A stretch of DNA of 64,000 bases, from contig JAOZFT010000020.1 in the NCBI GenBank assembly GCA_027492035.1, positions 75,071-139,070 on the forward strand, in the 5' to 3' direction. This document shows positions 2-15,289 of this stretch, piece after piece. A program made the position numbers and the translations under genes. The notes under the pieces are model-generated. The model searched no databases. It saw only the letters and a list, made by a program, of their open reading frames with translations, and was not told where the DNA came from. The first letter of the stretch is position 1, and every line of letters starts with the position of its first letter. The DNA comes from Thermoproteota archaeon (GTDB lineage: Archaea > Korarchaeota > JAOZGF01 > JAOZFZ01).

Positions 2-1315
2 AAGAAATTATTAGAGTTTGTAATAGAGGAAACTAAAAAAATTGATTCAAAGGTTAAAGTTATAGCTGGTACAGGAGGAAGCAGTACAAAAGAAGCTTTA
101 GAAATGACTAAATTCGCCGAAAAAAGGGGGGCTGACGCTGTATTGGTTTGCTCCCCCTACTATTTCAAAGTTTCAAATAGGAACCTGTATAACCACTACT
201 ACTGCATAGCCCAAGAAACAAGTATCCCAATCATAATTTATAACATTCCTCAACTTACAGGTAACAGCATAGACTGGAGAATAATTGAAGACTTAGCTCA
301 ACTAGACAATATTGTGGGTTTAAAGGACAGCAGTGGGAACATGTCTTACTTAATGACTTGTTTAGAAAAGGCAGGTGACAAAATAAATATTGTATGTGGC
401 TGGGATGAAATAGTTTTCCCAGCCTTAGCTGCAGGCGCAAGTGGAATGATACTTGCAAGTGCAAACATTCTGCCAGATATTTGGGTTGAAATCTATAACA
501 AAATGAAACAAAGCAAGTTAGAGGAAGCTAGAAAGCTTCAATTCAAAATACAAAAAATTCTGAGGTTAATTGTTAAAAGCGGTGCAGTTGGGGTTAAATC
601 TGCTTTAAAAATGATGGGTTTAAATGTTGGAAAAAGCCGCAACCCCTTAGCACTCGGTGGAGAACTGAGTTATGAAGACAAGGAAGAATTAAGGATTGAA
701 CTGGAGAAACTTGGAAAAATTGAAAAAGAAAAAGTTGAAATGGAAATTAAGCCAGGGGCTCCATTGGAAAAAAGGTTTGGTGCAATTGGTATTACTCCGA
801 AAAAAATTAAAGATTTCAGTTTAAAAATAGGTGAAGCCTTATCAGGTTCAGAACCTGAAGTAGCTCACATAGAGGTTTTAATAGGTGAAAAAAATGGTCC
901 AGTAGGAGAAGCATTCGCTAAGGCGAAAGCAGCCCCCTCCCCTGGACATGAGCCACTGATAGCTATTCTTGAGCCTAATTTGCCGGTTAAGCCAGCAACC
1001 TTAATAATACCCACCGTTAAAATTAAGAATTTAAGGTCTGCATCTCTTATTTACGGTGCAGCCCAGGCAGCTGTTGCTAAAGCTGTAGCAGACACTGTTA
1101 AAGAAGGTTACATACCTGAAGAAGAAGCAGATAATTTACTAATTCTGGCAAGTGTTTTCATTCATCCAGCAGCCGTTAACAGGCAGAGAATATACATTAA
1201 TAACTACAAAGCAATGAGACATGCGTTGAGACGCGCTATAGAAAACAGGCCAAACATAAGCGAAATACTAAATGACAAAGAAAAAGCCAAGCATCCCCTC
1301 AAGTATGAACCCTAA
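2..1315 (+). CDS. Class I aldolase (DHDPS/NAL family) fused to formaldehyde-activating enzyme; 5' end outside window
   Basis: One open frame enters from the left edge and runs to a stop at 1313-1315. The first part is the C-terminal two thirds of a DHDPS/N-acetylneuraminate lyase TIM barrel: a GTGGSST segment, the Tyr motif IIYNIPQLTG and the Schiff-base lysine in VGLKDSSG (codon 323-325). It ends near nt 720. After a linker, about nt 815-1315 encode a nearly full Fae domain, with AHIEVLIG carrying the expected catalytic His, LEPNLPVKPATL, AQAAVAKAVADTV and FIHP. Fae condenses formaldehyde with tetrahydromethanopterin to methylene-H4MPT. No stop lies between the parts. An internal ATG at 743 has no Shine-Dalgarno, so a fused product is expected. 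The aldolase substrate is unknown; KDG, 2-oxo-4-hydroxybutyrate or dipicolinate precursors are all possible. Confidence 0.88.
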   Translation, partial: KKLLEFVIEETKKIDSKVKVIAGTGGSSTKEALEMTKFAEKRGADAVLVCSPYYFKVSNRNLYNHYYCIAQETSIPIIIYNIPQLTGNSIDWRIIEDLAQLDNIVGLKDSSGNMSYLMTCLEKAGDKINIVCGWDEIVFPALAAGASGMILASANILPDIWVEIYNKMKQSKLEEARKLQFKIQKILRLIVKSGAVGVKSALKMMGLNVGKSRNPLALGGELSYEDKEELRIELEKLGKIEKEKVEMEIKPGAPLEKRFGAIGITPKKIKDFSLKIGEALSGSEPEVAHIEVLIGEKNGPVGEAFAKAKAAPSPGHEPLIAILEPNLPVKPATLIIPTVKIKNLRSASLIYGAAQAAVAKAVADTVKEGYIPEEEADNLLILASVFIHPAAVNRQRIYINNYKAMRHALRRAIENRPNISEILNDKEKAKHPLKYEP

Positions 1316-11806: not shown

Positions 11807-13387
11807 TTAAAACAAGTCATAATCTTGCAAGTAGCTCCTACCTGTTTTTAAAGCTATTTCGGCTTTGTTAAGTTCCTTTCCAAGGTATGCAGCATGAGGA
11901 AGGAGGGTAACTAACCCTCTTTTAATTGCTTCCATATACACATCTACAGACTTTTCTCCCCTGATTATAACATCAGGTTTCTCCCTGTTCCGGAAACTGT
12001 AATGTTGCAAAACTATTTCCCTCCTTTCCCTGTCAACATTTATTTTAAAGAAACCTTTTGGGTCTATGGGTGTCTTATATTGTTTTTCAGCCTTTACAAC
12101 CTTAACTTCATTCTCTATTGCAGGGTTATACAGAAGTTCTTTACTTCTCTTTTCTTTAAAGAAAAGGAGATTTATGGCTAAGTCTTTAGGAAAGGTTCCC
12201 CTCTTTCTTGAAATATAAATCATTTTGGAAGCTTTAATTAATTCCTTCACTGCTCCTTTACATTTATTGCTTTGTTCAGTAGTTAAAACCAAGTTTATAC
12301 TTAATTCATTCATTATTGCTGCGAGGATAGCGTTTACACCTATTGAGTCAGCATCTATTGTTTCTGTTATGTTTCCAACTCCGCAAAAGAGCATTTTTTC
12401 CGGATGCTTCCTGTGAAAAGTTTTGAATGTGATTAATGAATCTGTTAAATTCGGCATGTTGACAGGGTTTAAGATTAAGTCGCAAAGGAAATTTTTCACT
12501 CCTTCCTCCCTTGCTTTTTCAATGTTTTCCTCCATAACTTCTATTTTTTCATTTATCTCCACAGGAAAAATCCCTTTTTTGTAATTATACGGTATTATTA
12601 CAGCAGGTGTTTCCCCTAAGTAACTGGCAACCTCTTCTATGTTTCCCCCTTCCAAACTCACCACTAAATCTATACCCTCCTCTACTGCAGCCTTTATTTC
12701 CTTAGAAGAAACTGTGTCAATACTTAAGGGTGCATTACAAACTTTTCTTAAAAAATTAATCAGCTCCTTTACTTTTTCAGGTTTCTCCATGCCTGAAACC
12801 ATGCCTATATCTATTATGTGGGATCCAGAGTTTAAGTAATGTTTAACTTTTCTAATTAACTCTTCCTTAGACAATAAGGGGGCGTCAACTATTTCTGCTG
12901 CCACCTTAAATGGAAGTCTTTGATCAATGACAACTTTACCCCCAATAACAAATGCTTTTTCCTTGTTCAGTAACTCTTTTTCAAGTTTCTTTATTTCATA
13001 AAGTTCAGAGGAGGCTTCTTCCTTCCTCTTTAAATGTAAAATTTCACAGGCTGGAGTTACAGTTGAAAACTTGATTTTCCCCTGTTTAAAAAGGTTAAGA
13101 ATTTCTCCTAAATCTGTTGATAATTTAGGTCCCTTAAAAACAGGTAAACCTAGTTTTTCCCCTATCTCCTTTGTGTCTCCCTTAATTAATCCTGGGACCA
13201 AAATTAAATCAAAACCACGCCCTCTTAAGTCCTCCTTCTCCAGTTGTTTAATAATGTTTTTTATGGGAATTAATGAAGCTACGTCAAAAGGCAGAGTTTT
13301 AATTTCATAATCTACCTCGCTCCTCTTTACACTTTCATGAACAGACTTCTCGGCCAGTTTACCTGTTACAAGCAACACCTTCAACAT
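11807..13387 (-). CDS. Dihydropteroate synthase-related protein (archaeal MJ0107-like)
   Basis: A 526-residue protein of the archaeal DHPS-related family. Residues about 1-130 form an archaea-specific N-terminal domain. The central part is the DHPS-like barrel: HYLNSGSHIIDIGMVSG, PLSIDTVSSKEIKAA, DLVVSLEGGN and FLCDLILNP. A C-terminal extension follows. Family members are widespread in archaea with methanopterin and are proposed to act in its synthesis, but the reaction is not firmly settled. It is the last gene of a same-strand set behind mptA and dmrX, 56 bp after dmrX. Start ATG with GAGGTAG upstream. Confidence 0.85.
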   Translation of the reverse strand: MLKVLLVTGKLAEKSVHESVKRSEVDYEIKTLPFDVASLIPIKNIIKQLEKEDLRGRGFDLILVPGLIKGDTKEIGEKLGLPVFKGPKLSTDLGEILNLFKQGKIKFSTVTPACEILHLKRKEEASSELYEIKKLEKELLNKEKAFVIGGKVVIDQRLPFKVAAEIVDAPLLSKEELIRKVKHYLNSGSHIIDIGMVSGMEKPEKVKELINFLRKVCNAPLSIDTVSSKEIKAAVEEGIDLVVSLEGGNIEEVASYLGETPAVIIPYNYKKGIFPVEINEKIEVMEENIEKAREEGVKNFLCDLILNPVNMPNLTDSLITFKTFHRKHPEKMLFCGVGNITETIDADSIGVNAILAAIMNELSINLVLTTEQSNKCKGAVKELIKASKMIYISRKRGTFPKDLAINLLFFKEKRSKELLYNPAIENEVKVVKAEKQYKTPIDPKGFFKINVDRERREIVLQHYSFRNREKPDVIIRGEKSVDVYMEAIKRGLVTLLPHAAYLGKELNKAEIALKTGRSYLQDYDLF

Positions 13388-13443
13388 TTTCTACCTCTTA
13401 TTGTTTGTTCTTTACCAATGCTTTCTAAACCTTGCCTAAGCCT

Positions 13444-14184
13444 TTACGTCTCCAGTATTTCATTGATTTTAGTTAGCAACCTGGTAGGTTCTTCAACAAC
13501 CACTACTCCCTTCATTTTTCTTAGTTTATTAACGTTTTCAACATCTACTTCTCTAGTTTCTATTTTTGCTTTCTCCCAACAAGCTACTGCTTGGAAGGGA
13601 CATGCTGAAACACATTTTTCGCAGCCTATACATTTCAAAAGATTTATTTTTGGGCCTTCCTTGGTTGATTCTATAGCCTCAACCGGACAGTTTGTTAAGG
13701 CCGTGCATTCCTTACAGTTTAAACATTTTTCGCGTTTGATTATGCAAGGAAGCGTAATTTCTGTTTCTCCCAGCTTTGAATCCACAGGTAAAACAATCAC
13801 TGGAACTTTGCCTTTCAAAGCTTGGGCGAAAGCATTTGTAACACATGTGTCAGCCACTCCATTAACCATTTTAGCGACGGAGTTTGCTGTAACAGGTGAA
13901 ACAGCAAAAACTTTGTATTTTCTTAGATTGAAACGGCCTGAAAAAACTCCACTAGCCCCATCTGTTTCTCTGCTTACCAATTCTTCGTAATAAAGGCCTG
14001 GGGAAATTTTCTTAATTTTATCTCTTAAACCGTACATTCTGAGAATCTCTAACCCTGCTTCACTAACGAAGGTAGTTACTTTTACACCGTACTTTTGTTT
14101 AATCCCCAACATTATTTGGTAGGTTTCGAAAAGAAAAGTTCCTGAACCTGTAACTCCCCAGGCAAGCTTCAATTCTTCCCTCAA
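13444..14184 (-). CDS. dmrX: Dihydromethanopterin reductase (acceptor)-like flavo-iron-sulfur protein
   Basis: About 246 residues. The N-terminal part is a flavoprotein-like domain (LAWGVTGSGTF, FAVSPVTANSVAKMVNG). The C-terminal part carries two 4Fe-4S motifs, CLNCKECTALTNCP and CIGCEKCVSACP. This is the DmrX/archaeoflavoprotein architecture, which reduces dihydromethanopterin to the tetrahydro form. I prefer TTG 14184, six bases after GGGGTG, giving the usual short N-terminus; TTG 14199 is the longer option. It lies between mptA and the DHPS-related gene, which supports the pterin assignment. Confidence 0.83.
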   Translation of the reverse strand: MREELKLAWGVTGSGTFLFETYQIMLGIKQKYGVKVTTFVSEAGLEILRMYGLRDKIKKISPGLYYEELVSRETDGASGVFSGRFNLRKYKVFAVSPVTANSVAKMVNGVADTCVTNAFAQALKGKVPVIVLPVDSKLGETEITLPCIIKREKCLNCKECTALTNCPVEAIESTKEGPKINLLKCIGCEKCVSACPFQAVACWEKAKIETREVDVENVNKLRKMKGVVVVEEPTRLLTKINEILET

Positions 14185-14350
14185 TACTTCACCCCTCAAA
14201 TTTTAAACCAACAAATGCTTTTAAGACCATTTTTAAATCCTTAAATGCTTCAATTGTTCTTCTAAAGGAATAAATAAGGGAGTTAAAAGTCATTACGGAA
14301 GTAGCTTATTTCAGGTTTTTAATGGTTTGAGAGATCACTTCCGAAAAAAA

Positions 14351-15289
14351 TTATTTTAACTCAAATTCCTTTCTCAACTGTTCTAAAGTAGCATGGTACT
14401 CAGCCACTAAGTTATGTTCATGAATGCTCTCTAAGTCTTCTTGAATAAGGGAAACTTCTGTTTCATCAGGTAAATTCGGGAATTTATCAATTACTCCCTT
14501 CGCCATGTACCTTATCACATCCTCAGCAAACCTTGCTTTCTTCACAGCTTGCTTAACAACTTCAATTTCATCTTTCTTCTTCAATAATTCAAAAGTTGGG
14601 GCACTCATTGCATTCCTTGCTATCTCGATCAGTGTGTAAGCATTAACAGAATAATTCCCTGGAACCTCAACCACTAACGTAGCGTAGCTTCGCTGCATGT
14701 GGGTTGCAATAAACAGTTTTTCAACAAGCTTCTTCACTTTTTCTTCATTCCCTATATCCCTCTTTAAAGAATCCATTGTCTCCAAGAGAATGCTTTTCTG
14801 GGCGCTGGGGCAAGCAGTTATCCCGCTTACTTTAACCCCTACAGCCTTCTTTATTTTTATTTTCTTTTTTATCCTTTCAGCTTTAGCAGATCCTAGAAGT
14901 ACAGCTCTTTCAAATGTCTCCTTCCCTGTTACAGGTGTTTCAGTAGGATAAACCACATCACCTTGTAAAATAACTTCCGCCTTTCTACAGTAAGGATGCT
15001 TCTGCAAAAGCTCCTTTGCCACTCTGCTGCAGAAAACTTCAATTTTCAATTTTTTCTTTGCATACCTTGAAAGAACCTCAACTATGGCTTCATAATTCCT
15101 TGAAGCATGGATTCCGCGGTAGTCAGGAACTAAGTCAATGAAAGCAGAGACAGAAGGGACAAAAGCTGCTGTTTTATGGTTTATGTCGATAGAAAAAACA
15201 GGCACTCTAATATTTTCAACACCAACCCTTTTAAGATAAATACGAAACAAAGGTTTCTCAACATTTACGTCTGAAATGAGGGAAGGCAA
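14351..15289 (-). CDS. mptA: GTP cyclohydrolase MptA
   Basis: A 312-residue member of the MptA/FolE2 family that opens GTP for methanopterin synthesis. Family segments include the start LISDVNVEKP, VFSIDINHKTAAFVPSVSAF, RGIHASRNYEA, KVSGITACPSAQ with the metal-linked Cys, and THMQRSYATLVVEV. The length is typical. The TTG start is supported by the conserved N-terminus. First gene of the mptA-dmrX-DHPS-like set, about 165 bp ahead of dmrX. The Fae domain elsewhere in the window needs the cofactor this pathway makes. Confidence 0.93.
   Translation of the reverse strand: MPSLISDVNVEKPLFRIYLKRVGVENIRVPVFSIDINHKTAAFVPSVSAFIDLVPDYRGIHASRNYEAIVEVLSRYAKKKLKIEVFCSRVAKELLQKHPYCRKAEVILQGDVVYPTETPVTGKETFERAVLLGSAKAERIKKKIKIKKAVGVKVSGITACPSAQKSILLETMDSLKRDIGNEEKVKKLVEKLFIATHMQRSYATLVVEVPGNYSVNAYTLIEIARNAMSAPTFELLKKKDEIEVVKQAVKKARFAEDVIRYMAKGVIDKFPNLPDETEVSLIQEDLESIHEHNLVAEYHATLEQLRKEFELK

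Follow-up and report, generated by a model that had tools for sequence, protein, structure and literature searches.

Is the open reading frame at the left edge of this window (the whole 64,000-nucleotide stretch of archaeal DNA analysed here) a genuine fusion of an aldolase with formaldehyde-activating enzyme (Fae), and what might such a protein do? The frame is single and uninterrupted and contributes 437 residues inside the window, while the complete gene (G000:C21:74895-76385; G000 is the source genome, C21 the window's contig, and G and L numbers denote genomes and fetched loci, respectively) encodes 496 residues from a start 176 nt upstream of the window on the same contig. The protein consists of a full DHDPS/NAL-family aldolase (residues ~1-297), a linker (~298-334) that is 35-36 residues long in every row of the single-copy class, and a full Fae domain (Table 1). 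Pfam analysis of the in-window part placed both domains well above cut-off (DHDPS, PF00701, E 1.7e-58, profile positions 60-284 of 289; Fae, PF08714, E 1.5e-60, positions 1-158 of 159). The view of the initial annotation that the two domains are joined without a stop is thereby borne out, and its description of the Fae domain as nearly complete is corrected: the domain is complete. Contig C20 of G000 carries an unfused, stand-alone Fae gene and a second DapA-like gene, so the fusion supplements these and does not replace them.

Table 1. Features of the aldolase-Fae gene (window positions) and loci of a second candidate fusion in other genomes
Feature	Position	Strand	Basis or remark
Aldolase-Fae fusion gene, residues 60-496 and stop	2..1315	+	First 176 nt outside window
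DHDPS/NAL-family class I aldolase domain, residues 60-297	2..715	+	PF00701; TIGR00674 243.8 bits (full protein)
Leu144 at DapA substrate-arginine position (YNIPQLTG vs YNVPSRTG)	254..256	+	Alignment
Lys167, Schiff-base lysine in GLKDSSG	323..325	+	Sequence; 46/46 single-copy, 42/42 B, 35/37 A
Interdomain linker, about 35 residues	716..826	+	Length constant in single-copy class
Fae domain, residues 335-492	827..1300	+	PF08714; TIGR03126 203.1 bits, cut-off 118.05
His348, counterpart of M. extorquens Fae catalytic His (EVAHIE)	866..868	+	Alignment to 1y5y
Thr397-Val-Lys399 at canonical Lys-Val-Thr site of Fae	1013..1021	+	Alignment to 1y5y
SHMT-GcvT ORF loci	G395:C1:493775-495019, G398:C1:5093612-5094862, G403:C33:44000-45247		L169, L170, L171

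The fusion is not an assembly artefact, as full-length homologues occur on dozens of contigs and both domains fall in clades apart from their unfused relatives. How many other genomes carry it, a question left by the initial annotation, was answered by a profile search of 394 archaeal genomes, which found full-length fusions in further families and gave 17 fusion genomes, and by a scan of GTDB species contigs, in which at least 79 fusion loci were retained, at least three of them duplicating genomes already fetched (identical tree rows). The genome of a sister genus (G001) encodes the same fusion at 68% identity without an internal stop, the next family of the order has it as a contig-edge fragment, and another family of the phylum (G017) has two tandem copies. 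Relatives were inspected for a split or stop at the counterpart of nt 720-815, and none was found; G001, G017 and dozens more contigs read through in frame. Among the matches listed, the fusion occurs in Bathyarchaeia, Loki-, Thor-, Heimdall-, Njord-, Baldr-, Borr- and Hermodarchaeota, Theionarchaea, Scotarchaeum, Thermoplasmatota and Chloroflexota. In a tree of Fae domains the fused copies are separated (100/92) from those that stand alone or belong to Fae-Hps, and in a tree of aldolase domains the fused domains form one clade (SH-aLRT 99). A single fusion event would be the simplest reading, with the reservation that these trees hold few unfused comparison rows (15 and 20).

The fusion seen in the window is a single-copy gene, and the paired form found in other genomes and the partner genes, none of them visible in the window, are both more informative and the most novel features of the family. 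A two-gene form is present in Thorarchaeota, Chloroflexota, Thermoplasmatota, Baldrarchaeum, Scotarchaeum, one Bathyarchaeon and G017. Among the matches listed, the order is B then A on the same strand in all 35 pairs with both types readable, the other five pairs having a truncated or atypical second gene, and the members of a pair mostly overlap or sit no more than 10 nt apart. The two copies have lost complementary parts of the Fae site. In the aligned rows every single-copy protein (46/46) and every A copy (37/37) has the Fae histidine, against only 2/42 B copies (L109 and L111, which resemble an intermediate stage). Conversely, the glutamate of the EPN turn and the Gln are each conserved in 42/42 B copies, whereas the EPN turn is mostly gone from A copies and the Gln is kept in 20/37; the single-copy class has both (EPN 46/46, Gln 45/46). 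A C-terminal His-Pro motif is present in 37/37 A copies and 1/42 B copies, and the single-copy class retains it too (46/46). Scores against TIGR03126 straddle its cut-off, with both copies of L063 just above it (B 126.4, A 122.3 bits) and others below (L067 A 113.6, P0004 A 101.8, P0005 B 88.3 and L067 B 63.6 bits). In the Fae tree the A copies form one clade (100/96) and the B copies another (100/99), which fits one duplication followed by complementary loss; in a quick aldolase tree the B copies do not form one clade.

In the Fae structure of Acharya et al. (2005), methylene-H4MPT reportedly sits in a cleft that neighbouring subunits form together. From the complementary loss we predict that A and B assemble into a heteromer and share its Fae site, to which A would lend one wall of the cleft and B the other. 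In the A copy of G375 (L066 11782-13254) the Schiff-base lysine is replaced by Asn (MNDSSAN), so the aldolase of this copy is probably inactive; the B copy keeps the lysine.

The fused Fae domain aligns gap-free over the whole M. extorquens Fae domain (1y5y), whose residues His17, Asp19, Leu48, Lys66, Thr68 and Gln83 we take to be numbered as in UniProt Q9FA38, with the register checked against the 1y5y sequence. Like stand-alone M. extorquens Fae (1y5y/1y60), the fusion has the histidine, the PN turn and the Gln. It differs in that its paired form divides the site between two genes and in that the canonical Lys-Val-Thr of the carrier site is replaced by Thr-Val-X, the Lys66 position being Thr in this protein, in 44/46 single-copy rows and in 37/37 A copies.

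Several observations bear on the carrier. The source genome contains mch, beta-RFAP synthase and mptA, and positions 11807-15289 of the window (minus strand) hold a compact H4MPT-type cluster. The pterin genes that had been noted in the window were upheld for MptA (TIGR00294) and the dihydropteroate-synthase-like protein (TIGR00284), both over cut-off, and less firmly for the DmrX-like flavoprotein, which sits at threshold (TIGR02700, 250.8 bits against 251.35). The mch gene was found in 12/12 fusion archaea tested of the G000-G294 set and in the Chloroflexota G396, G397 and G407, but was not found in 8/11 Chloroflexota with the paired form (G394, G395 and G401-G406) or in 2/2 such Thermoplasmatota (G398 and G408), genomes for which completeness was not reported. 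Beta-RFAP synthase did not exceed its cut-off in these mch-less Chloroflexota and Thermoplasmatota either, which is weaker evidence because it was also missed in G017 and G209, both of which have mch. H4MPT is thus the likely carrier in the source archaeon, yet it cannot be the general carrier for all fusions, since the pair persists in several Chloroflexota and Thermoplasmatota without mch; a carrier other than H4MPT, or a different role of the Fae domain, has to be allowed for. The earlier proposal that formaldehyde passes to H4MPT is accordingly plausible for the source archaeon, with its mch and beta-RFAP synthase, and does not extend to the whole family, in view of the mch-less hosts and the Lys-to-Thr change.

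Clustering of neighbouring genes identified two partner families no more than three genes away from the fusion, c0 (~428 aa) in at least 35 loci and c10 (~313 aa) in at least 14, with one or the other in at least 49 loci together. Across the 394 genomes, c10 (detected at >500 bits) was found only in G000, G001, G002, G017 and G139, the G000 gene lying on a different contig (C38:37885), and c0 was found in the fusion genomes G080, G100, G120, G191, G197, G209, G226, G243, G260, G277 and G294. Hence 16/17 fusion genomes have c10 or c0, and never both, a strong co-occurrence to which we nevertheless attach no probability because the host genomes are related; neither family was found in the remaining fusion genome, G375. 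Conversely, c0 occurs without a visible fusion in G327 and G360, and as a fragment in G114. Among further genomes reached through the fetched loci, c10 was detected in 11/17; of the remaining six, G400 and G410 have c0 adjoining the fusion.

Sequence searches of Pfam, NCBIfam and the PDB gave no match above cut-off for either family, and c10 shows a sub-threshold similarity to Peptidase_U32 (best E 7e-4). Structure models indicate that both are TIM barrels. Fold searches left CutC, class II aldolases and RuBisCO-like proteins tied for c10 (Z 14-16) and glutamate mutase E, BKACE/DUF849, class II aldolases and MTHFR tied for c0 (Z 11-13), so we give neither family a function. Invariant E-x-S and F-K-x-S-type motifs occur in both alignments and hhalign matches c10 to c0 (E 1.1e-4, probability 57%), which makes it likely, but does not prove, that the two are related. 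Distant c10 homologues in fusion-less genomes with methanogen-like gene content (L163, L164, L165 and L166) lie in a conserved operon with MmgE/PrpD, a fumarase-type hydratase and a citryl-CoA-lyase-like protein, company that hints at a role as a C-C lyase.

The sequences themselves show the domain composition, the conserved residues, one origin within the sampled set, the tandem pairs with their complementary losses and the co-occurring partner. Chemistry, direction, carrier and A/B heteromer are inferred from these, and we hold with moderate confidence that the fusion is a bifunctional one-carbon enzyme, acting as an A/B heteromer in the paired lineages and sharing a pathway with c10 or c0. 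The N-terminal class I aldolase, which keeps the catalytic set of the class (G[ST]TGE, YNIP and the Schiff-base lysine), would join formaldehyde to a 2-oxo acid or split it off again. Fae, at the C-terminus, would exchange that formaldehyde with a tetrahydropterin carrier as the methylene derivative, without release of free formaldehyde. The carrier would be H4MPT in the source archaeon and in the majority of its relatives among the archaea, the active unit of the paired lineages would be the heteromer with its composite Fae site, and the pathway would also need the second TIM-barrel protein, c10 or c0. A wider and more tentative proposal, which we would not yet expect to hold in full, is that the aldolase-Fae fusion, the split A/B form and c10/c0 together constitute one formaldehyde-transfer pathway of Asgard archaea, Bathyarchaeia, other archaea and Chloroflexota, with a two-chain Fae site of which each chain lacks half, and with another carrier, presumably tetrahydrofolate, where H4MPT is missing.

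Four other explanations were weighed. The aldolase might act on another 2-oxo-acid aldol (a 2-keto-3-deoxy sugar acid or an NAL-like substrate), with Fae serving as a guard against stray formaldehyde or in assembly. The absence of Lys66 from the fused Fae agrees with this, as does the GxDE motif (GWDE/GHDE), which resembles the NAL site more than that of DapA. The NanA models (PRK04147, 201.2 bits against a cut-off of 281; TIGR00683, 179.6 against 382) and the KDG aldolase model (153.1 against 390) all score well under their cut-offs with no clear winner. We nevertheless consider this explanation rather unlikely, because the Fae histidine never varies among the single-copy proteins or the A copies, and because the complementary loss in A and B argues for selection on a working two-chain Fae site.

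Running the same chemistry in the synthetic direction is a poorer prospect still. Here Fae would free formaldehyde from methylene-H4MPT, and the aldolase would then couple it with a 2-oxo acid, giving for instance 4-hydroxy-2-oxobutanoate on the way to homoserine. The hosts do carry H4MPT one-carbon genes, and homoserine dehydrogenase is absent from 15/27 fusion genomes, including all Thor- and Lokiarchaeota tested (family f42, comprising G080, G100, G191, G209, G226, G260, G277 and G375, together with G120, G243 and G294); but the enzyme is present in the other 12/27, the source genome among them, and its absence may simply mean auxotrophy. The HOB aldolase of the synthetic homoserine cycle is RhmA/YfaU, described as a class II aldolase (PMC8879981, PMC7918591). 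It differs from the fusion in class, family and fold and has no link to a pterin carrier. The initial annotation had supposed that some aldolases of the same fold as the fusion release formaldehyde from 4-hydroxy-2-oxobutyrate; the literature searched confirms this chemistry only for class II RhmA/YfaU.

That the protein is an ordinary lysine-pathway DapA (4-hydroxy-tetrahydrodipicolinate synthase) with an incidental Fae tail is very improbable, even though it resembles DapA/DHDPS (TIGR00674; 2yxg) in fold family, Schiff-base lysine, G[ST]TGE, Tyr and dapA score. The full protein passes the dapA cut-off of 206.15 bits, so databases will name the fusion DapA, and family models do not reveal which class of substrate it uses. 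The position of E. coli DapA Arg138, which we take to be the arginine that binds the carboxylate of aspartate-semialdehyde, is however Leu, Cys, Val, Ala or another non-Arg residue in all ~126 fusions among the matches listed, and is arginine in 6/6 sequences of the clade that holds M. jannaschii DapA (2yxg). DapB was not found in the source genome (93% complete), nor in 25/28 fusion genomes overall. A DapA identity was rejected on these two grounds, and it would also leave the A/B division of Fae unexplained. Finally, a substitute for PanB, making ketopantoate from ketoisovalerate and methylene-H4MPT, can be dismissed almost outright, since for all its compatible chemistry and a Chloroflexota copy near a panC-like gene recognised by eye (L127), PanB proper coexists with the fusion in 12/24 fusion genomes tested, including G001, every one of the 8 genomes of family f42 and the genome that carries L127 (G397).

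A second DapA-like aldolase of G000 (L005 8744-16628, C20), with the motif YNVPKFTG, also lacks the DapA arginine and adjoins 2-oxoacid:ferredoxin oxidoreductase and HdrA-like genes recognised by eye.

The nearest natural analogue of the bifunctional one-carbon enzyme that we favour is Fae-Hps (NF009833), which is likewise archaeal, has Fae covalently bound to a formaldehyde-handling aldolase-type TIM barrel and shares the presumed hand-over of formaldehyde. In Fae-Hps the Hps part is C-terminal and belongs to the OMP-decarboxylase superfamily, whereas the aldolase of the fusion is N-terminal and of the Schiff-base DHDPS/NAL family. NF009833 matches the fusion over its Fae part only (profile positions 2-161 of 392, 187.9 bits against 274) with no C-terminal Hps, and, as the Fae tree shows, the fused domains form a separate clade. 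The statement of the initial annotation that known Fae fusions pair Fae with hexulose-phosphate synthase agrees with the literature searched, in which Fae-Hps is the only Fae fusion named. No description of an aldolase-Fae fusion or of a split Fae was found in that literature, which had limited coverage of subscription journals, and the fusion is genuine and apparently undescribed. Its spread and its complementary copies point to an undescribed way of moving formaldehyde, and it offers a testable target for formaldehyde handling in Asgard archaea and Bathyarchaeia. If the proposal is right, a one-carbon step of a large group of environmentally important anaerobes has been hidden by annotation as DapA, two conserved families (c10 and c0) can be named as parts of the same pathway, and the A/B pair is an unusually clear example of an oligomeric active site divided between duplicated genes.

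Further genes were noted in the fusion genomes. Upstream of the window on C21 (L004 3402-12486), a tungstate ABC transporter is followed by a CooF-like ferredoxin and a CooS-type CO dehydrogenase, in a block that also encodes an NAD(P)H-oxidoreductase-like protein and a CooC-like ATPase, and a small ferredoxin also lies upstream on the contig; none of the tungstate transporter, CooF, CooS and small ferredoxin genes recurs consistently beside the fusion elsewhere. Lack of SHMT was ruled out as a reason for a new C1 source, as SHMT is present in 27/28 fusion genomes. In Chloroflexota and Thermoplasmatota, SHMT lies in an ORF of ~1060-1260 aa that runs into GcvT-like sequence recognised by eye, an SHMT-GcvT fusion (Table 1). 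In G001 (L039 1-1906), genes for an MttB-type methyltransferase-like protein and a corrinoid protein, again recognised by eye, suggest that this archaeon uses methylated amines.
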